Source: Planctomycetota bacterium
GTDB taxonomy: Bacteria > Planctomycetota > Phycisphaerae > Sedimentisphaerales > Anaerohalosphaeraceae
Length of the DNA: 64,000 bases
Direction of reading: 5' to 3'
NCBI GenBank assembly: GCA_029552545.1
Contig: JAKPDO010000019.1
Span: forward strand, 248,001-312,000
Part shown: piece after piece, positions 26,001 through 42,416 of the stretch
How positions within the stretch are numbered: the stretch's first letter is position 1
Layout: every line of letters begins with the position of its first letter
The notes under the pieces: model-generated
Databases searched by the model: none
What the model saw: the letters and a program-made list of their open reading frames with translations, nothing else
What the model was told of the DNA's origin: nothing
Made by a program: the position numbers and the translations under genes

Positions 26001-29000
26001 ATTTTCCGGATGTACCGGATGATCTGCTGGGACAGTGTCTGGAGGCCTTTGACGGCCGGCCGGATTTTGTGCTTCTCGACAGTGCGGGACATCTGGGCTG
26101 GATTGAGTTTCAATATCTTCTGGAGCGTCTGAAAGGCCCCTGTATTCTTGCGCTGGATGATATCTACCATGTCAAGCATTACCGCAGTTTTCAGCAGATG
26201 CAGAACGACAAACGATTCGAGATTCTGGCTGCTTCCAAAGAAAAATTCGGGTTCTGCATTGCCCGCTTTGAGCCCCAGCCCAAACCCCGGATGACGGCTG
26301 AGCCGCTGCCGGAGCCGAAACATATTCTCTGGCTGCGTCCGGATGCCATCGGGGACGGGGTGCTTTCCGCGTCGATGCTGCCGGTAATCCGCAGGCGGTT
26401 TCCGAAGGCGCGGCTGACCGTGCTGGTTGAGGAATCGACGGCGCCGCTTTATGAGGCCTGTCCGTATGTAGATGAGATTCTCCGCTTCAGCATGGAAGAA
26501 ACTTACAAGCCGGCGGAGTTTCTTCAAAAGTGGGCACCGAAGATTTGGAAGCTGCAGGCGGATTGGCTGCTGCATTCCGTCTATTCCCGACAGTATTTGA
26601 TGGACGGATTGGTTTATCTGTCCAGGATTCCTGTTCGAATCGGAATGGAAGGAGACTGCACCAATATTTCGCCGGAGCAAAAAGCCGAGTCAGACCGCTG
26701 GTACACCCATCTGATTTCAAGTCCGGGCGTCTGGAAGTCCGAGCTGGAGCGTCATCGGGATTTTCTCAAAGGGCTGGGCTGTGAGACTGAATCTTTAAAA
26801 CCGATGATTTGGCTGACGAAAGAGGATGAAGCATTTGCCCGCCGCTGGTTTGAGGAACACAACGTAGCGCCGGAACGAGCCGTGATTTTATTTGCCGGGG
26901 CTCGAGTGCATCTTCGTCTTTATGAGGGGTATGGCATGGCGCTGGAAAAGACCGCCCTCCGCCGTCAGATGACGGTCATTGCATTGGGAAGCAAAAGCGA
27001 TTATGAGATGAACCAGCGAAATCTGGAACCGCTGAGCCGAAACGGGGTGCAGACGTTCAATTTATGCGGAGGGCTTACCCTGCATCAGAGTGCTGCTCTG
27101 ATAAAGTATGCTCGGCTGGCTGTAGGGGCGGAAACCGGGTTGGCCCATATCGCGGCGGCGTTGGAGGTGCCGCATGTGATAGTGATCGGCGGCGGACATT
27201 TCGGACGGTTTATGCCTTACAGTTCGAAAACGACATTGGCGGCCTTGCCGCTGGATTGCTATGGATGCAACTGGAATTGCCGCTACAGTGAGCAAAAGAC
27301 CTACTGTATACAGGATTTGCAGCCGTTTGTTTTGTCGGAGGCCGTAGAGAAAACGCTCGAATCACCCGCCGACAAACCGCGAATATTTATTCCGGATTCG
27401 GCCTCTTATCAAAAGGCAGATGGGGGACCGGAGTGGAAACTTTTTGAGAATGCTGTTCCTTTTCAGAATGTAGAGATTTATTCTGTTTCGGGCAGGAAGC
27501 CCTTGTCGCAGCGGGGAAAAGAGAAAACTCCTGCTTTGAGCCGCCCAAAGGAGTTTTCTATCATCGACAACCCCCATGAGTTTACCTATTCAAAAAGATG
27601 GCATTTCCAATTGTTTCAGCAGTCGTCTCAGGAATTATTCGGCAGGCCGGTGGACCCGGATAACTGGGATCTGAAGCGGTATCAGGACCTTCTGGTTTGT
27701 GAATTTCTTAAGCGTCATATTCCGAAAGGGTCAAGAATTTTGGATGTAGGCGGAGGGAATTCACGAATTTTGTCCCATTTCTGTCGGGATTATGAGTGCT
27801 GGAATATCGACCCCCTGAAAGGGGATGGTTATGGTCCTGTTGACCTGGACCCGAAAGGGCGTTATAAGTTGGTGCGGGATTATATGGGCAATTTCAATTC
27901 GGAATTGCCGGATAATTATTTTGATTTTGTTTTTTCCATTTCGACCCTCGAGCATGTCCCGGAAGATCCGAAGATTCATCAGAATATACGAGACGACATT
28001 AATCGGGTGTTAAAACCGGGCGGGTACAGTTTTCATCTTGTTGACACAATTATTAGGCCCAATGGGGTTTGGGTTCACGGGCAGGTTAAAAACTTTTTCT
28101 TTACGCAGAAAACCCTGAATCGGTGGGTGGAACCTCAAGAGCTCATCAACGACCCCGATTTGTACACAATGTCCAAGTCGGCTTATGAGAAATGGTGGAT
28201 GCCTGCTAACCATATTCCTTATGAGTCATTCGGTCGACCGTTTTCTTATCAGGTTTTGTGGCAGAAGGCGCCGAAGCCGAAACCGCAGGGAGGAACCGGT
28301 CAGAGTTCCAAATCAAGCTGCATAGAGATTTCCCCTCAATCGACTTGGCCGAAAATCACGGTGGTGACGCCGTCCTTTAATCAGGCCAAGTATTTGGAGG
28401 CGTGTATTCAGTCGGTCCTGAATCAGGGCTATCCGAATCTGGAATACATCATTATGGATGGGGGCAGTACGGACGGCTCTGTGGAGATTATTAAGAAATA
28501 CGAGAAATATCTGACATACTGGCAGAGCAAGCCGGATGGAGGTCAGTATGCGGCGGTTGAAGAGGGATTTCGGCGTTCGACCGGGGAAATTCTGACGTGG
28601 CTGAATTCCGACGACATCTTTTTGCCCGATGCCTTTTTCAAGACAGCGGCGATTTTTCAAAATCGTCCGGATGTTTCCTGGCTTATGGCAAAGACATGTA
28701 CCCTCCGGGAAGACGGGACAATCCACCGTGCGGCTCCGTGTGTGAAACTTTGGAATCGCGCTCGCTATTTGCAGAAAGACTACAAATACATTCAGCAGGA
28801 AGGAACATTCTGGCGTCGGAGTTTGTGGGAAAAGGCGGGCGCCTGTCTGAAAAAGGAGTCGTATTTGGCCGGAGACCTTGAGCTGTGGATGCGGTTTTTC
28901 CGATATGCGGATTTGTTCACCGCAGAGACGTATTTAGGTGCATTTCGCTATCACACCGGCCAGAAAACCGCCGATTTTCTTGAACAATACAATCGGGAAG

Positions 29001-30937
29001 CCGAAGCATTTTTAGAAGCCGAGCGGCAGGAATATGAAAAACAGCCGCCGGAGCTGCGCCCCCCTCTGCGTCCGGCTCCCCCGCCGATTTCAGAGTTGGA
29101 AATCAGCCGTTATTTAAGAACGCTGCCGAGCGTGAAGCCGAAGAAGACCGTTCAGGTTGCCTCCTCGAATGAGATTCGTGTCAGTGCCATTGTTTCAACC
29201 TATAATTCGGAGGCCTATATAGCAGGATGTCTGGAGAATTTAATCGGCCAGACTCTTTATGAAAAAGGGCAGCTTGAAATTCTTGTGATTGACAGCGGGT
29301 CTCAGCAGAATGAAGGGCAAATTGTTCGGGAATATCAGGCGGAGTATCCCAATATTCGTTATCTGCGTACGCCGCAGCGGGAGACAATTTATGCGGCCTG
29401 GAATCGGGCGGTTCGGCTGGCGGCAGGCAGGTACCTGACCAGTGCCAATACGGATGACCGGTATCGGTCGGATGCCCTGGAGATTCTGGCGGATACGCTC
29501 GATGCTCATTCGGAGGTCGGCCTTGTTTACGGGGATCAGATTATCAGCCCTATCCCTTTGGAAACGTTTTCCTCGGAGTGGGGGGAGAAGATCCCGCGTC
29601 CGGATTATACATATGAGCGGCTGCTGTTTGGATGCTGTGTGGGTTCGCAGCCGATGTGGCGAAAGTCGCTCCATGAGGAACTGGGGTATTTTGATGAGTC
29701 GCTGACGGTGGCCGGCGACTGGGACTTCTGGCTGCGAATTGCCGCTCGATATCCGTTCAAGAGAGTGCCTGAATTTCTGGGAATCTATTACAACAATCCA
29801 AACAGCGCGGAGCACCGCAATTTGATTCATTCTTATTATGAACGGTATCTGGTCGGCAAACGGTACGGCAATCCGTACATCTCCACAATTCCGCGCTGTG
29901 TCCGAAAAGACAATCCGCTTGTGTCGGTGATTATGCCGGCCCATAATGCCCGAGAATTTATCGGGGAGGCAATCGAGAGTGTTTTGATTCAGAATTATCC
30001 GCATTTTGAACTGCTGGTCATCAATGACGGTTCTGAGGATGATACGGAAGCGGTTATCAAGCGGTATGAAGACGAGCGAATTCGGTATTTTGTTCAGGAA
30101 CGAGGGGGGCCTTCAGCGGCTCGAAATGAGGGAATCCGACGCTCAAAAGGAGAGTTTTTTGTGATGCTGGACGCGGATGATTGCCTGTCGGCAGACCATT
30201 TGGGACAGATGCTGGACGCTTTTGACGAGTATCCGGAGGCCGACCTGATTTACTGCAAGACGATTCTGATCGACGAAGAAGGCAGGACGATTCAGGTTCA
30301 TCAGCAGCTGGAATTTTCCGACTCGAATCAGCTGATTCGGGAGTTCTTCCATGCCGGTTTTCCGCTTCTTCCGTTCCGTACGATGATTCGCCGGAGGGTG
30401 TTTGAGCAAATCGGCGAGTATGATCCGTCGCTTTGGGTGGCGGAGGATTTTGATATGTGGCGTCGGTTTCTCAAACAGGGGTTGGTTTTCCGCTATTGGC
30501 CCAAATCGTTTTATGGGCGGCGAATCCGAGAAAATGCCTGGTCCAAGACCGTTACGCCGGAGAAAGCCGCGACGCATTTTTCCGTTCTTCGGAGGTATCT
30601 GGACACCTTTGCACCGGAACAGCTGTTTCCGGAGGCCCAGTGGGAATCTTATCAGGGTTTGAAAAGGGAATATCTGTTCCGCTCACTGGCGGCCGGCGTC
30701 TTTGTTTCACTGGCGGAGCAGTACAAAAAAAACGGATTATCGCCTTATCTGATTCAGTCGGCGGCGGAACTGGCGATGGAGCAGATACGAATCTGCAGGT
30801 CTCTCTGTTCTGATCAGCCGGTTCCCCTTTCTCTGGAGCAAAGATGTGAGAACCTGCTGATTGACGCAGGAGCCGTCGGGGTGCTGCAGGAAATTGCGGC
30901 AGGATGTTCGAAAACGGAGGTTGAATCTTGTAAATGA
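23075..30937 (+). CDS. Giant multimodular methyltransferase/glycosyltransferase (2620 aa)
   Basis: Modules in order: MTase (VLDIGSGHMPF), GT2 (FVMIVLNGMPFIEYSL/WLIDSDE), MTase24-like (KSYLEIGVRTGASM), MTase (KIIETGTYLGRGTT), GT9 (ILWLRPDAIGDGVLSASM), MTase11-like (ILDVGGGNSRILSHF), GT2 (ITVVTPSFNQAKYLEAC), GT2 (VSAIVSTYNSEAY), GT2 (VSVIMPAHNAREF). Confidence 0.88.
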   Translation: MIVLPSNPRFCVLRKKAICEGISLQEGLLRAKELAINQQYLAALDLYEQLYRQYPQEAVQILAGAYDSIYRILREKKNRYWMYQARYFDFQIGPQDKVLDIGSGHMPFPFATHLADFAIEDNTYGRAGEPFRMVEGKKIFQCNVEKMPFADKEFDFVYCSHVLEHAENPEQACRELMRIAKRGYIETPTKGKDIFFDSARVSHHRWSIDLFNHRLVFTEYHPEELKGLECNVLGRMVSDPKTEYEKAFYALHFLRADMLNVMLYWEDQFEYEVRRFSNLPEGAAVSNAAVSVSDGCFRGTAPQEPRFSFVMIVLNGMPFIEYSLKSIYEFAHEIIIVEGAVEKCLFAANPDGSSKDGTVEFLRTFPDPSHKIRLIQGRWPEKCEMQNEALRYVTGDYVWLIDSDEVYKREDLEKIRTLLKNDPSITQVNFIPDNFWKGLDYIFVSPKFFEPAHHYRRLFQFRPGAVFISHRPPTLRWPGSSQTTEQMKLLDGQTTRRLGIIPFHYSYVTEEQVRQKIELYRRYGWGRMWNLDLQEWYEQCFLKWTPENREEIEKKWPVWTGDRDSHTERFTGTHPEVMRDFMVKVRTASAADAVFPEEKTLPILGSPAVAAQVLQNWQMIEADEPIRNRIAMIQKHLSEGKPFWNLYVALAYTAARLKPKSYLEIGVRTGASMVQVLGQSELDLAVGVDLWTGCYSDLPNTREYTQKQLRTFLLKTGCRTEIHLIQGDSHRVLKQLIQEGRRFDLITVDGDHSQVGAWEDLLDAKKLLADRGVIVFDDLIHPQFSYLLETAKRFVREFPEFKLLLNTKQDNGTALFLKGILPEEFLHQDELTSAKSSSLKVAEEYVKNGMAVKDGSAFAEAIARVFLERRPRKIIETGTYLGRGTTTILAEAMRRSGIEGTFFTIEVNPNYYAQAKAYLESRGYPVKPLCGLSIPRRLLPARDQIQAYVSQTAGGESIFVDHPEPVRAERYYQETDFPDVPDDLLGQCLEAFDGRPDFVLLDSAGHLGWIEFQYLLERLKGPCILALDDIYHVKHYRSFQQMQNDKRFEILAASKEKFGFCIARFEPQPKPRMTAEPLPEPKHILWLRPDAIGDGVLSASMLPVIRRRFPKARLTVLVEESTAPLYEACPYVDEILRFSMEETYKPAEFLQKWAPKIWKLQADWLLHSVYSRQYLMDGLVYLSRIPVRIGMEGDCTNISPEQKAESDRWYTHLISSPGVWKSELERHRDFLKGLGCETESLKPMIWLTKEDEAFARRWFEEHNVAPERAVILFAGARVHLRLYEGYGMALEKTALRRQMTVIALGSKSDYEMNQRNLEPLSRNGVQTFNLCGGLTLHQSAALIKYARLAVGAETGLAHIAAALEVPHVIVIGGGHFGRFMPYSSKTTLAALPLDCYGCNWNCRYSEQKTYCIQDLQPFVLSEAVEKTLESPADKPRIFIPDSASYQKADGGPEWKLFENAVPFQNVEIYSVSGRKPLSQRGKEKTPALSRPKEFSIIDNPHEFTYSKRWHFQLFQQSSQELFGRPVDPDNWDLKRYQDLLVCEFLKRHIPKGSRILDVGGGNSRILSHFCRDYECWNIDPLKGDGYGPVDLDPKGRYKLVRDYMGNFNSELPDNYFDFVFSISTLEHVPEDPKIHQNIRDDINRVLKPGGYSFHLVDTIIRPNGVWVHGQVKNFFFTQKTLNRWVEPQELINDPDLYTMSKSAYEKWWMPANHIPYESFGRPFSYQVLWQKAPKPKPQGGTGQSSKSSCIEISPQSTWPKITVVTPSFNQAKYLEACIQSVLNQGYPNLEYIIMDGGSTDGSVEIIKKYEKYLTYWQSKPDGGQYAAVEEGFRRSTGEILTWLNSDDIFLPDAFFKTAAIFQNRPDVSWLMAKTCTLREDGTIHRAAPCVKLWNRARYLQKDYKYIQQEGTFWRRSLWEKAGACLKKESYLAGDLELWMRFFRYADLFTAETYLGAFRYHTGQKTADFLEQYNREAEAFLEAERQEYEKQPPELRPPLRPAPPPISELEISRYLRTLPSVKPKKTVQVASSNEIRVSAIVSTYNSEAYIAGCLENLIGQTLYEKGQLEILVIDSGSQQNEGQIVREYQAEYPNIRYLRTPQRETIYAAWNRAVRLAAGRYLTSANTDDRYRSDALEILADTLDAHSEVGLVYGDQIISPIPLETFSSEWGEKIPRPDYTYERLLFGCCVGSQPMWRKSLHEELGYFDESLTVAGDWDFWLRIAARYPFKRVPEFLGIYYNNPNSAEHRNLIHSYYERYLVGKRYGNPYISTIPRCVRKDNPLVSVIMPAHNAREFIGEAIESVLIQNYPHFELLVINDGSEDDTEAVIKRYEDERIRYFVQERGGPSAARNEGIRRSKGEFFVMLDADDCLSADHLGQMLDAFDEYPEADLIYCKTILIDEEGRTIQVHQQLEFSDSNQLIREFFHAGFPLLPFRTMIRRRVFEQIGEYDPSLWVAEDFDMWRRFLKQGLVFRYWPKSFYGRRIRENAWSKTVTPEKAATHFSVLRRYLDTFAPEQLFPEAQWESYQGLKREYLFRSLAAGVFVSLAEQYKKNGLSPYLIQSAAELAMEQIRICRSLCSDQPVPLSLEQRCENLLIDAGAVGVLQEIAAGCSKTEVESCK

Positions 30938-31872
30938 CAATGAGCGGTTTTTCCAATCGGAATGCAGAGGCGGTTCTGGCAACGAGTATATCGCCCCGGA
31001 ACCCGGACAATCAGCAGCGGGCTGTTCAATCATGGCTGAAGGCGGGATTTTCGGTGATTAGTGTGAATAATCCGGAAGAAATTGAGCTGCTGCGTCCGCT
31101 GTTTCCGCAGGTCGTTTTTGTTCCGGCAAGACGGAACGGACAGGAGCATTTCGGCAAACCGCTGATTTATATTGATGATTTGCTTGCGACGCTGAGGGAG
31201 ACCGGGGCTTCGACAGTCGGCCTGATTAATTCGGATATTCATCTGAAAATAACGGAGGCTCATCGAAGGGTTCTGGAGGAAGTAACCCCAAAATCTGTCC
31301 TCTGCGTTCATCGTGTGGGGGTACAAAGTTTGGATGAAGAGAAAGGCGAACTGTTTATCGGAGGTGTGGATGCCTTTTTGTTTCATCGCCGTATTCTGGA
31401 GCAGATTCCGCCTTCTATTTTCTGTCTGGGAGTGCCTTGGTGGGATTATTATTTTCCGATCGTCTGTATTCTGAATCAGGTGCCGCTGGTTCGTTTTCAG
31501 GAACCGATTGCTTATCACCGGAAACACCCACTGAATTGGGATATGAAACTGTGGCACCGGATGGGCCGTTATTTCTATGGACGGCTTCTGGAATTGTGCG
31601 CCGAAAAAACGGGATACAATCCCTTTCAGAATCTGGCTGAAATATTCGGCAATGCCTGGAAATGCTATCATATTATTCTGACGCAAAAGAAGGTTCCCCT
31701 GGCGGTGGTTCAAAGAAACCTGGCCTATTGTGAGTTTATCTTCGGCATCATCTGCGGTTCCGTTCGTATTTTGGAGCCTGTTGTTCCTTCAAAGGCGGGT
31801 GCTGTTTCTCCTGTCCGGCTTGAAAACGGCGTAAACCAAATTCATCATTTGGAGGTATCAACAGTCCGATGA
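30934..31872 (+). CDS. Glycosyltransferase-island protein of unknown function (312 aa)
   Basis: Translationally overlapped with giant GT (ATGA); RNGQEHFGKPLIYIDDLLATLRETGASTVGLINSDIHLK suggests a GT-A-like fold, not assigned. Confidence 0.55.
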   Translation: MTMSGFSNRNAEAVLATSISPRNPDNQQRAVQSWLKAGFSVISVNNPEEIELLRPLFPQVVFVPARRNGQEHFGKPLIYIDDLLATLRETGASTVGLINSDIHLKITEAHRRVLEEVTPKSVLCVHRVGVQSLDEEKGELFIGGVDAFLFHRRILEQIPPSIFCLGVPWWDYYFPIVCILNQVPLVRFQEPIAYHRKHPLNWDMKLWHRMGRYFYGRLLELCAEKTGYNPFQNLAEIFGNAWKCYHIILTQKKVPLAVVQRNLAYCEFIFGIICGSVRILEPVVPSKAGAVSPVRLENGVNQIHHLEVSTVR

Positions 31873-33740
31873 GATATCTGGTTTCAGCAATTGTTTCGGC
31901 ATACAAGTCAGAAGCGTTTCTTCGCGAATGTCTGGAAGATCTGACGAATCAGACGCTTTTTGAAAAAGGACTTCTGGAAATTGTAGTGGTGGACAGCGGG
32001 TCTCCGGAGAATGAATGGAAGATTGTGGAGGAGTTCCAGAAACGCTCCGATTCCATTCTTTATCTTCGGACCTCTGAACGGGAAACGGTTTATGCGGCCT
32101 GGAACCGGGGCATCCGGGCCTCCTGCGGCAAGTATTTGACGAACGCGAACACAGATGACCGCCATGCCCCCGAAATGCTGGAGGTGCTGGCGGACTTGCT
32201 CGAGAAAAATCCTGACCAGGCGGCGGTCTATTCTCATTTTTATATTACGGATGTGCCTCATCAAACCTGGCAGACCAAAACGCCTTCCGAATTGGCGGAC
32301 TGGCATCCTCCTTTTTCCCGGGAGGCATTGCTGAAGGGCAACTTTATGGGGCCGCAGCCGATGTGGCGGCGCTCTCTTCACGATGAATACGGCTATTTTG
32401 ACCCATCCTTTAAGGTCTCCGGCGATTGGGAATTCTTCCTGCGGGTTTCACAGACGTATTCGTTTCTGCTCAATCGGGTGCCGCTGGGGCTGTATTACCG
32501 CAATCCGGGCAGTTTGGAGCGAAGCGCAGGCACCCGACATCAGGAAGACCGATTCATTCGGGAATTGTACACAAAGAACCGGAATCAAATTATTCGCAGA
32601 CCGTTCATTCCGGAATCGGGGTCCGCTTTTGCGGCTCGCCCGTCTGTTGTTGTTCCGGTTTCTGTTCCTTCCGTCGGGCCGATGGTGAGTGTCTGTATGG
32701 CGGCCTATAATACGGCATCGTTTATCCGGCAGGCGATTGAGTCGGTTCTGGCTCAAACCTATCGAGATTTTGAACTGGTGGTTGTTGATGACGGCAGCAC
32801 GGATGGAACGGCGGCTGTGGTGCAGTCTTTTCAAGATCGGAGAATCCGGTTTTTCTCCCAGCCGCATCAAAACTTTGCTTCGGCAATCAACCGGGCGATT
32901 CAGGAGGCACACGGGCGATTTGTACTGGGGGTGGATTCGGATGATTTTATTGCGCCCGATTATCTGGAACGAATGATTACATTTGTAATACAGAATCCGG
33001 ATTATGATTATTATTATCCGGAAAAACTAACGTTGGTGGATGAAGCCGGCAAGCCGACTGGGGTAGAATGGAAATACGATTCCATCGAAAATCCTGAGAT
33101 ACTTCCAGCCCTTCTGTTTGCCCGAGGCGACTCACCGATTCCGAATTCCGGTTCGCTGAAGCGGCGGGCTCTATTCGAAAAAACCGGATTGTATCGCGAG
33201 TTGGATAATGTGGAGGATTTTGAGTTTTTGTGCCGCTGCGGACCGCAGATTCGCTTCCGAAGAGTTGCAGGGGGCTGCGGATATTTCTATCGGAGGTTGG
33301 AAAAAAGCAATACTGTACGTTATGAGCGGCGCCATCGCATTACAGCACAGTGTTTGGAGGAAATGATTGAACGGTATCAACCGGAACAATTATATCCGTT
33401 TTTGAAGGGGGACGATTTTGAAAGGAAAAAGCAATTCTGGAATTACATTGTTTCCATTTTTGAAAAGCACGCAGATACTTACCGCCAAAGACAAGGAGAA
33501 GTATTTGCCCGCTGTGCGGAAAAATACAGACAGAGGAGGCCTGAAATCTTGGTCCGAGAAGGTTTCAAACGGGTGCAGAACTCTTTGGAAAAGAAAAACG
33601 TGCGGCAGGCGGCTGAACTATGTCGGCAATTATTGTCCGATAAGTCTCTTTATTTGGCTGACGGAAGCCGACAAACTCTTCAACAGATTCTCGAGCAAAT
33701 TGAAACGAACTGCCCGGAAAAAGATTTTGCTGTTAAATGA
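31869..33740 (+). CDS. Bifunctional tandem GT2 glycosyltransferase
   Basis: VSAIVSAYKSEAFLRECLEDL...NANTDDRH and VSVCMAAYNTASFIRQAIESVLAQTYRDFELVVVDDGSTDGT...GVDSDDF. Confidence 0.88.
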   Translation: MRYLVSAIVSAYKSEAFLRECLEDLTNQTLFEKGLLEIVVVDSGSPENEWKIVEEFQKRSDSILYLRTSERETVYAAWNRGIRASCGKYLTNANTDDRHAPEMLEVLADLLEKNPDQAAVYSHFYITDVPHQTWQTKTPSELADWHPPFSREALLKGNFMGPQPMWRRSLHDEYGYFDPSFKVSGDWEFFLRVSQTYSFLLNRVPLGLYYRNPGSLERSAGTRHQEDRFIRELYTKNRNQIIRRPFIPESGSAFAARPSVVVPVSVPSVGPMVSVCMAAYNTASFIRQAIESVLAQTYRDFELVVVDDGSTDGTAAVVQSFQDRRIRFFSQPHQNFASAINRAIQEAHGRFVLGVDSDDFIAPDYLERMITFVIQNPDYDYYYPEKLTLVDEAGKPTGVEWKYDSIENPEILPALLFARGDSPIPNSGSLKRRALFEKTGLYRELDNVEDFEFLCRCGPQIRFRRVAGGCGYFYRRLEKSNTVRYERRHRITAQCLEEMIERYQPEQLYPFLKGDDFERKKQFWNYIVSIFEKHADTYRQRQGEVFARCAEKYRQRRPEILVREGFKRVQNSLEKKNVRQAAELCRQLLSDKSLYLADGSRQTLQQILEQIETNCPEKDFAVK

Positions 33741-33843: not shown

Positions 33844-35922
33844 ATGGCATCTATCCAATTGACAGGTCTTTCGACGGGAATTGACACAGCGGCGATTGTT
33901 GAGCAGCTGATGCAGGTGGAAAAACGCCGACTGACCAGTTTGCAGTCCAGTCTGGCAACGCTGAAGGACAAACGAACGGCCGTGACCGACCTGAACAGCA
34001 AGCTGACTTCTTTTCGTTCGGCCCTGAGTGCTTTGTCGGATTCGAGCCAATTGAGGACGTATCAGGCCAAAACCAGTGATGAGGACCTGCTGACTGCGAC
34101 GGCTGGCAGCAGCGCCTTTGAAGGGACGCACAATATCAAGATTCGACAGCTGGCTACCGCCAACCGCTGGGTACATAATGGATTTAATTACAAGACTCAG
34201 TATGTCGGAGAAGGCAATCTGATTTTGTCGTATAATAACAAGGAGTTTGTAGTGCAGACCACGGCCACTACGACTCTGGAGGAATTGGTAACTCTGATAA
34301 ACAATGACCCGGATAATCCGGGAATTACGGCCAGCATTCTGGATTATCAGTCGGCCGGCGGTCGGTATCATCTGGTTCTGAGCGGCCGTGAAAGCGGTTC
34401 GGATTATCAGATTGCCATCAACACGAGCAATACGGATGTTCATACCTCTTCGGCCCTGAAAACGAGCAACGGGGACAACGCTTCCCTGACGACCCGTTTG
34501 TCTCAATTACAGGGCAGTTCCGGTTTCGGGACGGGTTCCACATCAGATCAGATTCGGATTCAGGGTACCCTTCGGGACGGTACGCCGGTGGACTATTCTT
34601 TCGATGTGAACCAGTACACGACCGTGGAAGAGCTGATGTCCGAAATTGAAAATGCATTCGGAGATACGGTCAAGGTTCGTCTGGAAGAAGGAACTCTGAT
34701 TCTTACGGACCGCACCAGCGGGACCAGCAACCTGTCAATTTCGCTTGAGCTGGTGCCCGGAGAGGGGTCATCGGCGGTCTGGACAGCTCCGACTTTTACG
34801 GAAACTACAGTCGGCGGTTCGATTACGTCCAATCTGACGCTGCTGGCGCCGTCCACTTTTTTGGAAACCCAGGCGGCTCAGGATGCGATGATTAAGGTGG
34901 ATGGATATCCGCCGGGGGATGATACCGATGAAAATACCTGGATTCGCCGCAGCACCAACACGATTGATGATGTGATTGCCGGGGTCACCCTGAATCTGCA
35001 CAGTGCGACCGGGAATGACACCGATGGGTATCGGTCCGTAGAAGTGACCCTGAACCGTGATACGACGACGCTGAAGGATAAACTCCAGGCGATGGTCGAT
35101 GCGTATAATGCGGCGGTTTCCTATCTAAAGGAAAAAACAACCTATAATGAAGAGGAGAAAAAGACCGGTATTCTGTCTTCGGAGTACAGTTTAACCAGCA
35201 TTACGAGTCTGATTCGCTCTCCGCTTCTCTTTAATGCGGCCGGGTTTACAGACAAGGATACCTTTGTCAAACCGGCGGATATCGGCATCAAGTTCAAGGC
35301 GGACGGCACCCTGACTCTCGACAGTGCCAAGCTTGAAGAAGCGCTGGTGGATGATTATCAGGGGGTGCTTTCTCTGATTGGTGCCAAGAAGACGGGCTAC
35401 AGCAGTTCCAATACGATTCAATTTTATCAGGCCAGCAGTTATACGCAGGGCGGCCAGTATGATGTCCGGGTTACGGTGGAAGGCGGTGTGATTACATCGG
35501 CGCAGATTAAGCTGAACACGGAGGACTGGTCGGCCGCACGGGATATGCGAATCGAAGGCAATACTCTGTACGGAAGTACGGACACCATCAGCAGCGGATA
35601 TCCGGCGCATCCCGAATACAGTCTGGTCTTAACGGTTGATACATCGCAGAACGGAAGCTTTGATGCCTCTGTAAGCGTCAAGCAGGGCTTTGCAGGCAAT
35701 CTGTATGATGTGGTGGACAACATGCTGAAGGTCGGCACCGGACGTGTTTCGATGGTTCAAAAGAGCGTCCAGAGCCGCATTGACAATATGGACGGTCAAA
35801 TCAGCCGAGAGGAAGAACGACTGAGTCGTGTCGAGACGCGGCTGAAGAATCAATACGCCCGGTTGGAGAGAACTTTGCAGCTGATTCAGCAGCAGATGTC
35901 CGGCCTGAACATGCTTGGTTAG
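33844..35922 (+). CDS. fliD: Flagellar filament cap protein FliD
   Basis: IQLTGLSTGIDTAAIVEQLMQVEKRRLTSLQSSLATL; C-term VQSRIDNMDGQISREEERLSRVETRLKNQYARLERTLQLIQQQMSGL. Confidence 0.93.
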   Translation: MASIQLTGLSTGIDTAAIVEQLMQVEKRRLTSLQSSLATLKDKRTAVTDLNSKLTSFRSALSALSDSSQLRTYQAKTSDEDLLTATAGSSAFEGTHNIKIRQLATANRWVHNGFNYKTQYVGEGNLILSYNNKEFVVQTTATTTLEELVTLINNDPDNPGITASILDYQSAGGRYHLVLSGRESGSDYQIAINTSNTDVHTSSALKTSNGDNASLTTRLSQLQGSSGFGTGSTSDQIRIQGTLRDGTPVDYSFDVNQYTTVEELMSEIENAFGDTVKVRLEEGTLILTDRTSGTSNLSISLELVPGEGSSAVWTAPTFTETTVGGSITSNLTLLAPSTFLETQAAQDAMIKVDGYPPGDDTDENTWIRRSTNTIDDVIAGVTLNLHSATGNDTDGYRSVEVTLNRDTTTLKDKLQAMVDAYNAAVSYLKEKTTYNEEEKKTGILSSEYSLTSITSLIRSPLLFNAAGFTDKDTFVKPADIGIKFKADGTLTLDSAKLEEALVDDYQGVLSLIGAKKTGYSSSNTIQFYQASSYTQGGQYDVRVTVEGGVITSAQIKLNTEDWSAARDMRIEGNTLYGSTDTISSGYPAHPEYSLVLTVDTSQNGSFDASVSVKQGFAGNLYDVVDNMLKVGTGRVSMVQKSVQSRIDNMDGQISREEERLSRVETRLKNQYARLERTLQLIQQQMSGLNMLG

Positions 35923-37463
35923 TCGCTCGGCCGGACGACGGCGGACAGCGGCGGGAGCAGGTATACGCGGCGAATTGAAGGGTATCCTGCAAGAAAAGAC
36001 TGAACTTGGGCAGGTGATTTCGTGCTGAAGAAGAGCACGTGAACGGAAGGAGGCAATGTTCCTGAGGCGAGAGAGGGCAATGCCTGGGGGGCGTAAAGGA
36101 GACGGCAGACAAAATCATTCGAAAGCGGTTCCGCCGCTTTCCGCAGCCATTCCTCCAGACGGACAGTTTGAAGCCAAAGATGCGGGATGTGGGGTGCGGC
36201 TGCAGGAACAGTCAAAGTGGCCGGGTCGAGCGAAAAGACTTTCGCCACAGCATTTCGGGGGTCTGCATCCAGCAAAAGAACATTCTTTTGTCTGCGTGCC
36301 AAACGCAGAGCAGGGTGAACAACGGTGTTGACCGGCAGGTCTTTGACGGATTCCGACGTCAGCAGAAAACAGGACTGCTGCAAAGACGGCTGAGTGAAAA
36401 ACTCCTCCATCCAGCTGTAATATTCTTCGCAGGAAGAGCATTGAACAGGAAGGGGACGGATTTCCGGTTGTGATGCCGTTCCGGACGGTTCAAAGTCAGC
36501 AATTTGTTCGGAGCCCCCGGAGGGACAGGATGGTTTCGCAAGAGATTGCGGATTCAGGATTTCAATTTCTTCTGTTCGGCCGGAAACACAGGAGCGGATT
36601 CGGATGGTGCGGCTTTGGGCGGATTCACTTTTGCTGTCGGCGGAAGGCAGAGCCAGGGATTCCCTGGAAAGCAAGGCGGCGCAGGCACCGGCGGCTATGG
36701 CAGCAGGAATCCAGGCCAGCAAGGCCGTTCCCGCCAGAGGAGGCGCCAGGGTTTCCAGCGGAGATTGTCCGGATGGGGCGGAAGCGGACTGAAGCCATTC
36801 CGACAGCCACGCCAGAGGCCAGGCAGCCAGGAGGAGAAAAACATTGACTGTAATTTGTGCAAGAAAGAGTTTTCGAATCTGCTCCATCGAGGCATAGAAC
36901 CGAATTTCTTTTCGGATTTTTTCGGCCAGCAGCTGTGCCTGTTCAGATGTGAGGATTTGAAGAGAGCGGTCGGCTTTCAGGCCGGCTTTTTTAAACGGCA
37001 GAATCCGGAAGAAGTATTCTTCGGCGGCCATATGCATTCTTCGGCTTGCCAGACGGACTAAATACAGCAGAAAAAAACCGAGGAGGAAAACCGCCAGCAG
37101 GGCCAGCAGGGGTTCCAGAGAAGCAACGGCCCAGCCAATCATTCCGACCAGTCGTCCGCAGGTTTGTCGATGAAAAACGACGGCTTTCAGGCAGCCCGAA
37201 ACCGTCAAAAAACTCAGCATCAAAGCGGCAGCGGTCAGCAGAGGAAAACCGTCCAGCTGACTGCTGTTTTGAGCTCTCAGGCAGATTAGCACCACGGCGG
37301 CCGTCAAAGACAGCTGGAGAATCCATAAAACGTCGAGTGCCGGCGAAGACCAGGGCAGCAAAATGCCGGTCAGCAGCATCCCGGCTGTGCCTGCAAACAG
37401 AAGCTCTGTGCGGCTCCAGCCGGCTCTGTCCTGAAAGGGCACACTTGCTACCGGGGCATCCAT
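35919..37463 (-). CDS. FlhA-like membrane domain fused to degenerate ParA/BY-kinase-like domain
   Basis: LPWSSPALDVLWILQLSLTAAVVLICLRAQNSSQLDGFPLLTAAALMLSFLTVSGCLKAVV and RMHMAAEEYFFRILPFKKAGLKADRSLQILTSEQAQLLAEKIRKEIRFYASMEQIRKLF align with the FlhA N-terminal/FHIPEP region; C-term LLTSESVKDLPVNTVVHPALRLARRQKNVLLLDADPRNAVAKVF. Confidence 0.72.
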   Translation of the reverse strand: MDAPVASVPFQDRAGWSRTELLFAGTAGMLLTGILLPWSSPALDVLWILQLSLTAAVVLICLRAQNSSQLDGFPLLTAAALMLSFLTVSGCLKAVVFHRQTCGRLVGMIGWAVASLEPLLALLAVFLLGFFLLYLVRLASRRMHMAAEEYFFRILPFKKAGLKADRSLQILTSEQAQLLAEKIRKEIRFYASMEQIRKLFLAQITVNVFLLLAAWPLAWLSEWLQSASAPSGQSPLETLAPPLAGTALLAWIPAAIAAGACAALLSRESLALPSADSKSESAQSRTIRIRSCVSGRTEEIEILNPQSLAKPSCPSGGSEQIADFEPSGTASQPEIRPLPVQCSSCEEYYSWMEEFFTQPSLQQSCFLLTSESVKDLPVNTVVHPALRLARRQKNVLLLDADPRNAVAKVFSLDPATLTVPAAAPHIPHLWLQTVRLEEWLRKAAEPLSNDFVCRLLYAPQALPSLASGTLPPSVHVLFFSTKSPAQVQSFLAGYPSIRRVYLLPPLSAVVRPSD

Positions 37464-37523: not shown

Positions 37524-38579
37524 TTATCTGGTATGACGCAGCCGATAGAGCAGGGCGAGGATTTCAGCAACCGCCGTGTACAGTTTTTCCGGGATGGGCT
37601 GGCCCAGTTTGACAGTGGCGTACAGTTCACGAGCCAGGGGGGGGCGCCGCAGGATGGGAACGCCGTAAGCACGGGCGACTTCTTTGATTTTTTCGCAGAG
37701 ATGGTCGGCGCCCTTGGCAACGACAATCGGGGCGGGTGTCTGAGCGGGTTCGTATTTGAGCGCGACGGCTACATGGTCCGGATTTACCAGGACCACGTTG
37801 GCTTTCGGCACTTCCTGAAGCATCCGCCGCATAGCGGCTTCCATCTGTTTTTGGCGGATTTTGGTTTTGACTTCCGGGGCTCCTTCCGTGTCGCGGTATT
37901 CGGCTTTGACCTCCTGCTTGGTCATTTTGAGATTTTTGATGTACTGCCAGCGGTGATAAAGAAGGTCCAGCACAGCCAGAATCAGCAGGCCTGCGCAAAT
38001 CCGGATAACAACCCCGAAAACCAAACGTCCTATCGAGGCCAGTATCTGGTCGGGAGGCAACCACTGAAACGTGGTCAGGGATTGAAGTTTGTTGTGCAGG
38101 TAAAGCCATACAATGACCGCCAGAAAGAGGATTTTCAGCGTGGACAGCCCCAGCCGCACAAGGGATTCCGGAGAGAACAGCGACATCAGACCCCGCATCG
38201 GATTGAGATTTTCCGGTTTCCAGGCGAGGGCCTTGGGGGCGAAGTTATATCCGCTGACCAGAATGCATCCGCCGACTCCCGCCACTGTCAGAGCGAGCAG
38301 AAAGGGGGCTGTTATTTTCATGATTTCCAGAATCAGGGAATTCGCATATTTCAGAAAGGATTGAGGGTTATCCAGCCAGAGCGGCTGACAGGAAAGTCCC
38401 GAGAGCATTTGCTGTTTGGACCACTGAACAAACCAGGGGGCGCACAGGGCGGTCATCAGAGTCAGCACAATCAGGGAGATGGCAGCGAGCATCTCCTGGC
38501 TTTGAGGGATATGACCCTCCTGACGCGCCTTTTCGAGGCGTCGCGGGGTTGGGTGTTCTGTTTTGTTGGCTTCAGCCAT
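37524..38579 (-). CDS. flhB: Flagellar export apparatus protein FlhB
   Basis: TEHPTPRRLEKARQEGHIPQSQE...VLVNPDHVAVALKYE...AYGVPILRRPPLARELY. Confidence 0.93.
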   Translation of the reverse strand: MAEANKTEHPTPRRLEKARQEGHIPQSQEMLAAISLIVLTLMTALCAPWFVQWSKQQMLSGLSCQPLWLDNPQSFLKYANSLILEIMKITAPFLLALTVAGVGGCILVSGYNFAPKALAWKPENLNPMRGLMSLFSPESLVRLGLSTLKILFLAVIVWLYLHNKLQSLTTFQWLPPDQILASIGRLVFGVVIRICAGLLILAVLDLLYHRWQYIKNLKMTKQEVKAEYRDTEGAPEVKTKIRQKQMEAAMRRMLQEVPKANVVLVNPDHVAVALKYEPAQTPAPIVVAKGADHLCEKIKEVARAYGVPILRRPPLARELYATVKLGQPIPEKLYTAVAEILALLYRLRHTR

Positions 38580-38585
38580 AGAAAG

Positions 38586-39335
38586 TTAAAGCGGCAGCAG
38601 CCGATTGAGCCATTGGGCGAACTGTTGGATATATTCATTCAGATACGGGATGAAGAAACCGATAATCAGCAGTCCCATTCCGATTCGCAGCGGGAAACTG
38701 AGAAACAGCACATTGGATTCCGGGGCAATTCGGGCCATAAAGGCCAGAACAACCAGCAGCAGCATAAAGGCCGCCAGAATCGGCGCAGCCAGCTGAAGGG
38801 CCAGAAGGAACATGGCGGAGCCGGAGCGCAGAATGCTTTCCATAAGAGCCCCTATATGGGGGGGACTTGTCGGCGGAAAACGTTCAAGACTGCGGGAAAG
38901 AATCTCCAGAAGGAGAAAGTGACTGTTGGTGCTGAATAAAAGGAGAATGAAAAGAATCTCCAGCAGCAGCCCGAGCGGGTGCCCTTCTTCGCCGCTGAAG
39001 GGGTCAAAGACCTGGGCGATGCTCAAGCCCATTTCCTGTTCGATGTACTGACCGGCCATATGAATAACGCTGAAGAGACAGTAGGCCGCAATCCCCATGG
39101 CCAGTCCGTAAAGGACTTCTTGTCCGAGCAGCAGCACCATTTCAATCGGGGCGGGGTTATTCAGGAGCGGCGGAGGGGTTAAAACAGTGAAAAAAAGACT
39201 CAGCAAAACAGCCGCAGCGATTTTCAGCTGAACAGAAAGCACATCCCAGCTGAAGATGGGGGCTGCGGCGAAGAAGGCCCCCAGCCGAGTCAGAATCAGG
39301 AAAAAACCGAAGAGTCTCCCGCCGAACAGGTCCAT
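38586..39335 (-). CDS. fliR: Flagellar export protein FliR
   Basis: FFLILTRLGAFFAAAPIFS...GQYIEQEMGLSIAQVFDPFSG; order fliQ-fliR-flhB. Confidence 0.9.
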   Translation of the reverse strand: MDLFGGRLFGFFLILTRLGAFFAAAPIFSWDVLSVQLKIAAAVLLSLFFTVLTPPPLLNNPAPIEMVLLLGQEVLYGLAMGIAAYCLFSVIHMAGQYIEQEMGLSIAQVFDPFSGEEGHPLGLLLEILFILLLFSTNSHFLLLEILSRSLERFPPTSPPHIGALMESILRSGSAMFLLALQLAAPILAAFMLLLVVLAFMARIAPESNVLFLSFPLRIGMGLLIIGFFIPYLNEYIQQFAQWLNRLLPL

Positions 39336-39338
39336 ACT

Positions 39339-39608
39339 TTACTGTCCATAGGTCTGGATTTGCGCAAAAATTTCGTAGGTGAACTTAATGAGAATTTGAA
39401 GCATCCAGTGGCCGAAGAACAGTGTGGTGACGCCCACGCCGATGATTTTGGGAGCCGTGGCCAGAGTCATATCCCGGATGGAGGTGACCGTTTGGAACAG
39501 CGAGATGAGAACGCCCAGTCCGGCGCAGACGATGAGAATCGGCGCCGAGACGAGCAGGGCGGTTTCCATTGTGTGGCGTCCCAGATAAAGAATGTAATCA
39601 GCCGTCAT
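39339..39608 (-). CDS. fliQ: Flagellar export protein FliQ
   Basis: 89 aa, two TM; TALLVSAPILIVCAGLGVLISLFQTVTSIRDMTLATAPKIIGVG. Confidence 0.93.
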   Translation of the reverse strand: MTADYILYLGRHTMETALLVSAPILIVCAGLGVLISLFQTVTSIRDMTLATAPKIIGVGVTTLFFGHWMLQILIKFTYEIFAQIQTYGQ

Positions 39609-39620
39609 AGGTTCAATCCT

Positions 39621-40430
39621 TTATTTGAAGCTTAAACTCAATCCCTGAGCCAGAATCCCCCAGCCGTCCACGAGGATAAACAGAATGAGTTTGAAAGGCA
39701 GTGAAATCATGACCGGCGGCAGCATCATCATCCCGGCACTGAGCAGAATACTCGAAATTACCAGGTCCAGCAGGAGGAACGGGATGAACATCAGGCAGCC
39801 GATTTCGAAGGCGGTTCGAAATTCGCTGATGACAAAGGCCGGCGTGACAATGTGCAGGGGCAAATCCGATGCCTGGGCCGGCGGGGTGATTCGGGCCATA
39901 TTGACAAAGACAGCCAGGTCGGAGGTCCGAGTTTGGCGAAGCATAAAATCCTTCAGAGCGGCACTGGCGATTTCCGTGCTCTGCTGGAGTTCCATTTGGT
40001 TATTCAAATAGGGCAGAATCGCTTCCTGATGGATTTTTGAAAAGGTTGGAGCCATTGTAAAAAGGGTCAGAAAGAGGGCCAGACCGAGCAGGGCGGTATT
40101 GGGAGGAATGGTTTGAGTCCCTAAGGCCCGCCGGACAAAACCGAGCACGATGGCAATACGGGTAAAGGAGGTCATCATGGCCAAAATGCTGGGCAGCAGA
40201 GCCAGCAGGGTGAAGAGAAAAACCAGCCGAATCGGCCCGCTCCAGGGAGTCGGGGTCTGCTGCTGCGGGTCGGTCGAGGCCTTGTCAATCATTTTGAGAA
40301 GGTCTTCGATGGTGGGCATGGTTGTTTGTCCGGCCGGAGCAGCCGGCTCGGGGGCAGGGCTTTGCGCCGGGCAAGCCGATTGGAGCCAACCCGCCAGAAC
40401 AAGAACAGCCGGAAGGCAGCTCTTTCTCAT
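39621..40430 (-). CDS. fliP: Flagellar export protein FliP
   Basis: LLALLPSILAMMTSFTRIAIVLGFVRRALGTQTIPPNTALLGLALFLTLFTM...VTPAFVISEFRTAFEIG. Confidence 0.95.
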   Translation of the reverse strand: MRKSCLPAVLVLAGWLQSACPAQSPAPEPAAPAGQTTMPTIEDLLKMIDKASTDPQQQTPTPWSGPIRLVFLFTLLALLPSILAMMTSFTRIAIVLGFVRRALGTQTIPPNTALLGLALFLTLFTMAPTFSKIHQEAILPYLNNQMELQQSTEIASAALKDFMLRQTRTSDLAVFVNMARITPPAQASDLPLHIVTPAFVISEFRTAFEIGCLMFIPFLLLDLVISSILLSAGMMMLPPVMISLPFKLILFILVDGWGILAQGLSLSFK

Positions 40431-40882
40431 AAAGACGGCTCCTTTTGAGGGGAGGTCGGGAGGGAGGTTTCCGTCAGCTCGGCAAGAAAGCGGATACTGT
40501 CCGGCGTACTGCTGAGCAGCAGTTTTTTCCGGCCGACTTCCACAAGATGGAGCATCTTGCGCGGCCCAAGCGGAACCGTTTCAACCACGGTGATCAATCT
40601 GCCTTTGCCGACCAGAAGTCCTTTGCTGTATTTGCGGACAAACCACCATAATCCGCTCCCGAAAATGGCGACGATAAGAATCATAATCAAAAGCTGCCGA
40701 ACGAGATTTTGATGCAGATTGTCCAGATTTTGGGATTGGGAAGAGGGTTTTTGCTCCAGCCAGACTGGTTGAGCAGTTTGGGGCAGATTGGGCTCGGCAG
40801 GTTGAGAAGCCGATAAAACCCATTGTCCAACCAGGCAAAAAACCAGAATCAATCCGAGCCATATCAGTCTTTTTTTCAGCAT
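40427..40882 (-). CDS. fliO: FliO-like flagellar biosynthetic protein
   Basis: Single TM, then KGRLITVVETVPLGPRKMLHLVEVGRKKLLLSSTPDSIRFLAEL typical FliO; precedes fliP. Confidence 0.85.
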   Translation of the reverse strand: MLKKRLIWLGLILVFCLVGQWVLSASQPAEPNLPQTAQPVWLEQKPSSQSQNLDNLHQNLVRQLLIMILIVAIFGSGLWWFVRKYSKGLLVGKGRLITVVETVPLGPRKMLHLVEVGRKKLLLSSTPDSIRFLAELTETSLPTSPQKEPSL

Positions 40883-41037: not shown

Positions 41038-41769
41038 TTATTTTTCAATAATCAGGGTAATCAGAATTTGGGTTTGTTGGGTTGTCAGGCCGTTTCGACT
41101 GGTCCATTCGCCGCCGCTGCCGGCGCCCCAGCAGAAAATAGGCAGTTTTTTGTCGGCCGTATTCAGAGTTTCCAGATAGTCTTTTACGGCTTTGGCCCGG
41201 CGGGCTGACAAAATCATTTGACCGGATGGGGTGTTTTCCTCACCGGCTAAGCCGAGGATATACACCATAGCTTCATGGCCGGTTGTAGTGATGCAGATTT
41301 GGTTCCAGGCCAACTGAAGCTCTTTTTGGGCCTTTTCATCCAGTACGGCGGACTTGGGGGCAAATTGGATTTTCATTGGAAGGAAGGTTTTGGAAATACC
41401 GTCAATTTGCGAGGGAGAGATTTTCATCTTTGTTTCGATTTGGAACAAAACCCGCCGCAGCATTTCCATGCGGGCATCGAGCGAACGGTCTTTTTCTTCA
41501 TCCTTTCCTTCGTCAATATTGTAGGCCGGCTTGGGATGTTCAAATTCAAGGCCGCTCTTCCTTTCAATTAAAAAACCGCTCAGTCCGAAATCCGCCAGTG
41601 CCTTGCGAACGGAATTGCTGCCGGCCATAAATTTGTGTTTATCGACACGAGTATCAGCCATGCTGATCAGCATGACAAAAAAGGTCAGCAGAAGTGTGAC
41701 CATATCCGAATAGGTGACAATCCAGGCCGGTGCTCCGGCAGGGCTTTCCTGCGGTTTCTTGATGCTCAT
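41038..41769 (-). CDS. motB: MotB-like stator protein with OmpA domain (copy 2)
   Basis: APAWIVTYSDMVTLLLTFFVMLISMAD (MotB TM with Asp) plus LSARRAKAVKDYLETL. Confidence 0.88.
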   Translation of the reverse strand: MSIKKPQESPAGAPAWIVTYSDMVTLLLTFFVMLISMADTRVDKHKFMAGSNSVRKALADFGLSGFLIERKSGLEFEHPKPAYNIDEGKDEEKDRSLDARMEMLRRVLFQIETKMKISPSQIDGISKTFLPMKIQFAPKSAVLDEKAQKELQLAWNQICITTTGHEAMVYILGLAGEENTPSGQMILSARRAKAVKDYLETLNTADKKLPIFCWGAGSGGEWTSRNGLTTQQTQILITLIIEK

Positions 41770-42416
41770 TCGTAGATGCTCCGTTCCAGCAGCGTAATTT
41801 CCAGTTGGCGGTTCTGGGGCGGCGTCCGTAAGGTGGTAGCGGGTGAGATGCTGAACCGCTCCAGGGGCAGCCCCCCTTCCTGAGTCAGGTATTCGAGAAC
41901 AGCCAGGCAGCGGGCCAGAGAAAGTTCGGTTTTCTCCTCCGGTCCCGCTTCGGCGATGACTATCCGGCCCGTCACAGAGCCCAGAAACTTAGCCAGGGCT
42001 TCCAGGACTTCCCGTCCGGGCTGAGAAATAGCGGTACCCTGTCCCCAGAAGAACTGTTCTGAGGGGATTGTAAAAACCTTCAGATTTCGGAAATCCAGCG
42101 GTTTTTTTTCCTTCATAAAATTGCTGGTCAGCCGGGTGATGTTGGTTCGGGTTTCCGTTCCTTTGGTTTGCTGGACCTGGTCGTTTGATTCCTGTTTTTT
42201 TTGGAAGGATTCCCGGTCGCTGATTCGGCTCCAGCCGATCGAGAGCAGGGACTGGGCAAAGGACTGGGCCAGCGACTCGAAGGTTTCTTTTTCAAATGTG
42301 GCAAAACTGATGAGCAATACAAAAAAAGTCAGCAGCAGCGTCATACAGTCACTGAACGTGACCAGCCATTCCGGAGCACCTTGCTGTTCTTCTTCTTTTT
42401 TTTTGAACCCGGCCAT
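41766..42416 (-). CDS. motB: MotB-like stator protein (copy 1)
   Basis: APEWLVTFSDCMTLLLTFFVLLISFATF; C-terminal degenerate OmpA-like region (LSLARCLAVLEYLTQEG). Confidence 0.88.
   Translation of the reverse strand: MAGFKKKEEEQQGAPEWLVTFSDCMTLLLTFFVLLISFATFEKETFESLAQSFAQSLLSIGWSRISDRESFQKKQESNDQVQQTKGTETRTNITRLTSNFMKEKKPLDFRNLKVFTIPSEQFFWGQGTAISQPGREVLEALAKFLGSVTGRIVIAEAGPEEKTELSLARCLAVLEYLTQEGGLPLERFSISPATTLRTPPQNRQLEITLLERSIYE

Follow-up and report, generated by a model that had tools for sequence, protein, structure and literature searches.

FlhA is generally regarded as a motor subunit that the flagellar export gate cannot do without, and bacterial tyrosine (BY) kinase domains usually act in surface polysaccharide or glycosylation systems. 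In the Salmonella export apparatus, a preprint describes a proton path that runs via R85-D208, N137, D249 and Q254 of FlhA, essential channel charges at R147, R154, D158 and D199, and transmembrane (TM) helices TM7-TM8 that pack on the neighbouring subunit (PMC13308203). EcpK of Myxococcus xanthus is a BY pseudokinase proposed to act as a phosphorylation-independent scaffold with the membrane partner EpsV (PMC12004946), and in Bacillus subtilis the export apparatus of the flagellum is activated by SwrB, a membrane protein specific to that lineage (PMC4526659). The present work concerns a gene following flhB in a 64,000-nucleotide stretch of contig JAKPDO010000019.1 of a Planctomycetota bacterium (the window). 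Its product, called the fusion below, joins a FlhA-like membrane half to a BY-kinase-like C-terminal domain (C-domain). It is a new architecture made from two known folds, and it is classed neither as FlhA nor as a BY kinase, since it lacks defining features of both.

With FlhA/SctV (PF00771, TIGR01398) the fusion shares the homologous TM1-TM6, the FHIPEP arm and a gene position after flhB, where sister families carry flhA. It differs in having no TM7-TM8, no cytoplasmic domain FlhAC, a largely lost proton path and an unrelated C-domain, and in coexisting with a canonical FlhA. The BY kinases Wzc, Etk, CapAB, VpsO and BceF have in common with it the C-domain fold, the Walker A' Asp and the framework NLA...VLLIDAD..R...F, whereas in the fusion the Walker A Lys is replaced by Pro and the Walker B Asp by Tyr, the ExxRxxR motif and Tyr tail are lost and the membrane anchor is FlhA-like. 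EcpK and HfsB likewise have the BY-kinase fold without catalytic motifs, but they are separate proteins serving polysaccharide co-polymerases and are not joined to an export-gate paralogue; the Walker A' Asp is retained in the fusion, unlike in EcpK (PMC12004946). By analogy, EcpK may be the closest functional precedent for a BY-pseudokinase scaffold; SwrB, which is monotopic, is a precedent by role. The nearest relatives found for the C-domain are stand-alone proteins with one TM helix and a Lys to Pro change in Walker A common to both; they have no FlhA part, and the copy in the same genome lies away from the flagellar genes. No description of a FlhA paralogue or of a FHIPEP-kinase fusion was found in the open-access literature, the subscription literature being outside this search.

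The two halves of the fusion

The intact open reading frame (ORF) of 514 codons that a preliminary description had placed after flhB was confirmed on the minus strand, starting 60 nt downstream of flhB. It forms the end of the core flagellar operon (fliF...flhB) and is convergent with fliD, with a 4 nt overlap.

The window genus is well diverged from FlhA. Residues 32-194 of the window protein matched FHIPEP PF00771 at 19.4 bits (E 4e-4), under the Pfam cut-off, and residues 21-268 matched NCBIfam FlhA TIGR01398 (E 9e-6). Orthologues from the slower-evolving family f7 were far above the PF00771 cut-off (E 1e-59 to 1e-61), and one single protein, L144, matched both FlhA (7e-56) and the BY-kinase model TIGR01007 (9e-9). 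The fusion-family profile matched FlhA/SctV sequences of the Protein Data Bank (PDB) with E 1e-28 to 8e-39 over FlhA residues ~14-273. These matches always stopped near chain residue 263-273, that is, after TM6, which indicates that TM7-TM8 and FlhAC are absent. Judged from these alignments, the membrane half is a true paralogue of the FlhA membrane domain, with TM1-TM6 only. The preliminary description was right about the FlhA TM domain and the missing export platform; the segment that it took for the final FlhA TM helix does belong to FlhA but is TM6. The AlphaFold2 (AF2) model of the TM half reached a pLDDT of 86 and a pTM of 0.81, and the FHIPEP-type hairpin corresponds to helices 118-167 and 173-226. 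FlhA thus shares its FHIPEP membrane domain with the fusion, which does not have the eight TM helices: AF2 placed a low-confidence linker where TM7-8 belong, with low pLDDT at 270-285 and 304-331 and strands predicted at 286-290 and 297-301. This linker carries a conserved motif, SGxxEExE(I/L)LNP, plus FEP, and occupies the site of FlhA TM7-TM8 and of the FlhAC linker. Beyond it, the BY-kinase-like domain stands in place of the cargo and chaperone platform FlhAC.

All 34 canonical FlhAs compared had R85, R94, R147, R154, D158, D199, K203, D208, D249 and Q254 invariant, with Gln at position 137 (34/34). Among the 42 fusion rows (38 distinct proteins, four having been entered twice via two fetch routes) D249 and Q137 were never retained (0/42 each), and retention was low for D199 (2/42), R154 (6/42), D158 (8/42), Q254 (9/42), D208 (10/42, with Glu in 15) and R147 (16/42); D45 and P161 were kept in 38/42 and 36/42. 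The window protein has S85, K94, L137, R147, E154, R158, E199, Q208, T249 and W254, so that the proton-path and central-ring residues of FlhA from R85 to Q254 are not present as a set. In the six slowest fusions functional sites were preferentially lost, 0.30 being kept vs 0.55 for other invariant sites (permutation p 0.03).

For the C-domain, the best PDB matches of the profile were the BY kinases CapB (E 1.7e-5) and BceF (2.6e-5), with ParA-type proteins just behind, and the full-length AF2 model gave Foldseek matches to Wzc/Etk/CapB for its C-half (prob 1.0). Profile and Foldseek thus agree on a BY-kinase/SIMIBI fold. Of the BY-kinase/ParA-like domain proposed earlier, the BY-kinase part stands and the ParA part does not; a ParA/MinD/FlhG identity was rejected because the KGGxGK Lys is absent and the best matches are BY kinases. 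In an alignment of the fusion rows with 12 same-order BY kinases and 13 stand-alone relatives, the columns of Walker A, A' and B aligned cleanly to the BY kinases, and the BY-kinase-like register described earlier is real. The Walker A Lys, present in 12/12 BY kinases, was Pro in 36/42 fusion rows (P377 in the window protein) and in 13/13 stand-alone relatives, and the following Ser/Thr was Val in 41/42 fusion rows. The Walker B Asp, again in 12/12 BY kinases, was Tyr in 42/42 fusion rows. The reported replacement of GEGKST by a DLPVN-type sequence and the Walker B without Asp were both borne out. The ExxRxxR motif and the Tyr-rich tail were gone: the final 30 residues of fusions held 0-3 Tyr, against 4-10 in the final 60 of 11/12 BY kinases. 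This combination, a BY-kinase fold without catalytic motifs or Tyr tail, is that of an EcpK-like BY pseudokinase. The C-domain is a BY-kinase-type P-loop fold without the residues for nucleotide chemistry. With the proton-path residues lost in the membrane half, both halves appear catalytically dead, yet a distinct set of residues is strictly conserved.

The stand-alone relatives of the C-domain, of 200-300 aa, occur across the order, some in genomes without FlhA. The one in the window genome (L129:9420-10217, plus strand, equivalent to G000:C29 ~170420-171217, also given as 170639-171106) has one TM helix; its gene neighbours an SMC-like gene, M16-peptidase-like genes and a gene for a coiled-coil protein of 496 aa. 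A strict pairing of the fusion with the stand-alone relative was rejected, as the fusion is listed for several f7 genomes without the stand-alone protein and some genomes have the stand-alone protein without FlhA.

Family, origin and co-occurrence with FlhA

Conservation of the fusion in related Planctomycetota, raised in the preliminary description, was observed: orthologues of the same architecture were tallied in ~43/149 genomes of the order, two of them (G243 and G270) counted from partial ORFs. Orthologues were also present in named Phycisphaerae/Planctomycetota metagenome-assembled genomes when 85,462 species genomes were scanned. Wherever the flank was long enough and read, they sat after flhB and were convergent with fliD. 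No fusion was found beyond the order in class- and phylum-wide genome samples. The ratio of nonsynonymous to synonymous substitution rates (dN/dS) was 0.15-0.39 in pairs among four genus members, and the fusion is a real family kept by selection. Neither outcome named beforehand as fatal to the description, no FHIPEP profile match or orthologues with a normal FlhA C-domain, occurred. A shrunken fusion of 416 aa was seen after flhB in G223 (L177:3824-5071); it has lost the FHIPEP arm and retained the degenerate P-loop domain.

The second, full-length flhA that had been predicted was found: the window genome has one separate FlhA (G000:C41, 826 bits), with fliL-like, FliM/FliN-like and fliA-like genes alongside. 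Identity between the fusion and its partner FlhA was about 20-40%. In the sister families f16/f17 flhA directly follows flhB, so that the fusion stands at what was ancestrally the place of flhA. The same gene order is seen, with a more distant FlhA, in f5 and G042. In the membrane-domain tree the fusions formed one clade (99/100) with a long stem, nested with the canonical FlhAs of the order (99/86), although long branches make the inner branching order uncertain. The simplest history is a duplication of flhA in an ancestor of the order, after which the copy remaining behind flhB underwent truncation and fusion and began to evolve faster.

Counting canonical FlhA only, the fusion was present in 41/116 FlhA-positive vs 2/33 FlhA-negative genomes. 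The two exceptions (G252 and G287) are 82% complete, and their sole FHIPEP match is the fusion itself. Among genomes at least 90% complete the counts were 23/51 vs 0/16 (Fisher p 4e-4, kinship ignored). As to FlhA itself, two fusion-less f1 genomes, G015 and G023 (flhA L022 and L023), have FlhAs that group with f2/f6, which suggests flagellar-gene exchange between families. The members of family f5 (G027 and G032) have the more distant FlhA and a full FlhF, and flhB and flhA are adjacent in G027.

Proposed role and competing explanations

We lean, with moderate confidence, towards the fusion being an accessory scaffold or regulator, non-conducting and nucleotide-independent, for the flagellar type III export gate. 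The position after flhB, the separate canonical FlhA and the co-occurrence with FlhA point to an accessory gate protein, and the loss of proton-path, Walker A and Walker B residues to one that would be non-conducting and nucleotide-independent. In this model, a duplicated FlhA at the ancestral flhB-flhA site, with a working flhA elsewhere, would have become an accessory export-gate protein. Its membrane core would dock near FliPQR-FlhB and/or the FlhA ring, conducting no protons, and its C-domain would be cytoplasmic, the whole serving perhaps as a scaffold, an assembly factor or a checkpoint factor. The pseudokinase domain may be a nucleotide-independent docking module, by analogy with EcpK-EpsV (PMC12004946).

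Several points weigh against this proposal. Physical association of the fusion with the gate is a prediction from gene context and homology, and without TM7-TM8 the fusion may be barred from the normal FlhA ring. Many flagellated relatives have no fusion, flhB usually being followed directly by the convergent fliD; there the gene has either been lost or never been acquired, and having flagellar genes does not depend on it. R85 is retained in 28/42 fusions and Q254 in slow members. Averaged over all fusions, charged or amide (polar) sites were kept at 0.323 vs 0.325 for other invariant sites, so that general fast evolution accounts for part of the proton-path loss. Finally, Foldseek with the TM-half model gave no FlhA match, although full-length FlhA entries of recent date may be missing from the fold library; full-length FlhA sequences of solved structures are present in the PDB sequence set.

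It is also conceivable, but unlikely, that the fusion is an inhibitory subunit which inserts into the FlhA nonamer or caps incomplete rings, throttling or timing export in a dominant-negative-like manner. The retained TM1-6 core and the loss of key proton residues would suit such a subunit, and Salmonella D208 mutants are dominant and apparently incorporated into the apparatus (PMC3139655). The large divergence from the partner FlhA speaks against it, as does the absence of TM7-TM8, helices that in a FlhA ring lie against the adjoining protomer (PMC13308203). We rank next, and also hold improbable, a homo-oligomeric membrane complex of its own that works outside the flagellum, for example in surface polysaccharide or glycosylation: the BY-kinase-like C-domain and a big set of glycosyltransferase and methyltransferase genes just past fliD agree with it, but the operon is shared with gate genes, the gene is nearly absent from FlhA-negative genomes, and the membrane half is FlhA-like and not of the Wzz type.

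A membrane-anchored SIMIBI-fold protein could in principle replace FlhG as a flagellar number or placement factor in systems without FlhF, FlhG/MinD being of the same fold class as the C-domain. FlhF was above the cut-off only in f5 (G027/G032, another flagellar type) and was not found in the window genome or in 28 other relatives searched. This explanation is nevertheless very unlikely, as the C-domain is nearest to BY kinases and has lost the usual ATP-hydrolysis residues, and same-type relatives without the fusion also have no FlhF, giving no replacement pattern. A simple FlhF/FlhG replacement was rejected on this ground, FlhF absence not being tied to the fusion. Least probable of all, to the point of being scarcely tenable, is an assembly error, or a decaying relic of a duplicated flhA that was joined by chance to a neighbouring frame. 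The fast evolution of the gene, its repeated absence from relatives and the shrunken G223 copy would fit decay, but the same architecture with open frames recurs in dozens of separate assemblies, Y457 is invariant and the dN/dS values are low (0.15-0.39). An assembly artefact or pseudogene, already contradicted, was rejected on the conserved architecture and dN/dS.

Genomic setting and implications

The features of the locus are collected in the table below. Upstream of flhB, its strand also carries fliR, fliP, a fliO-like ORF, two MotB-type ORFs, motA and fliJ/I/H/G/F-like ORFs, named by order and similarity; for the fliR/fliQ/fliP/fliO-like genes, named in the same way, blastp recovers the same genes in the operons of relatives.

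Table. Coordinates of the fusion, its parts and adjoining genes in the window.
Feature	Position	Strand	Basis
Whole fusion gene, 514 aa	35919..37463	-	ORF (ATG at 37463, stop at 35919); conserved position between flhB and convergent fliD; dN/dS
FlhA-like membrane domain, residues ~18-266, TM1-TM6 + FHIPEP-type cytoplasmic helical hairpin	36666..37412	-	TIGR01398, family profile, AF2
Low-confidence cytoplasmic linker, residues ~267-335	36459..36665	-	Alignments, AF2
Pseudo-BY-kinase domain, residues ~336-514	35922..36458	-	Profile vs PDB BY kinases; Foldseek
Degenerate Walker A, residues 375-380 (DLPVNT), vs GxGKST region	36324..36341	-	Alignment
Retained Walker A' region, residues 397-401 (LLDAD), invariant D399	36261..36275	-	First Asp 42/42
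Degenerate Walker B, residues 455-459 (LLYAP), invariant Y457	36087..36101	-	Alignment
flhB, canonical, immediately upstream of fusion	37524..38579	-	PF01312 E 2.7e-116
fliR, fliQ region, fliP, fliO-like ORF (export gate, same operon)	38586..40882	-	ORF list, gene order
fliD, convergent with fusion	33844..35922	+	PF07195/PF02465

After motA a tandem pair of differing MotB-type proteins is encoded (41038-41769 and 41766-42416, minus strand), which is conserved in most operons of relatives. Beyond fliD lie a gene for a 2620-aa protein (23075-30937, plus strand) with several GT2 glycosyltransferase domains, one GT9 domain and several methyltransferase domains, and a second glycosyltransferase-like ORF (31869-33740). 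Similar long ORFs are found beyond fliD in relatives, and this region is possibly a flagellar glycosylation island.

If the proposed role is true, the fusion would be a natural separation-of-function variant, showing what the FlhA core does without proton flow or cargo docking. It would also provide a link between BY pseudokinases and the flagellar machine that is undescribed as far as the open-access search shows. Its retention by selection beside the flagellar genes suggests that it is a new accessory component of the export machine.

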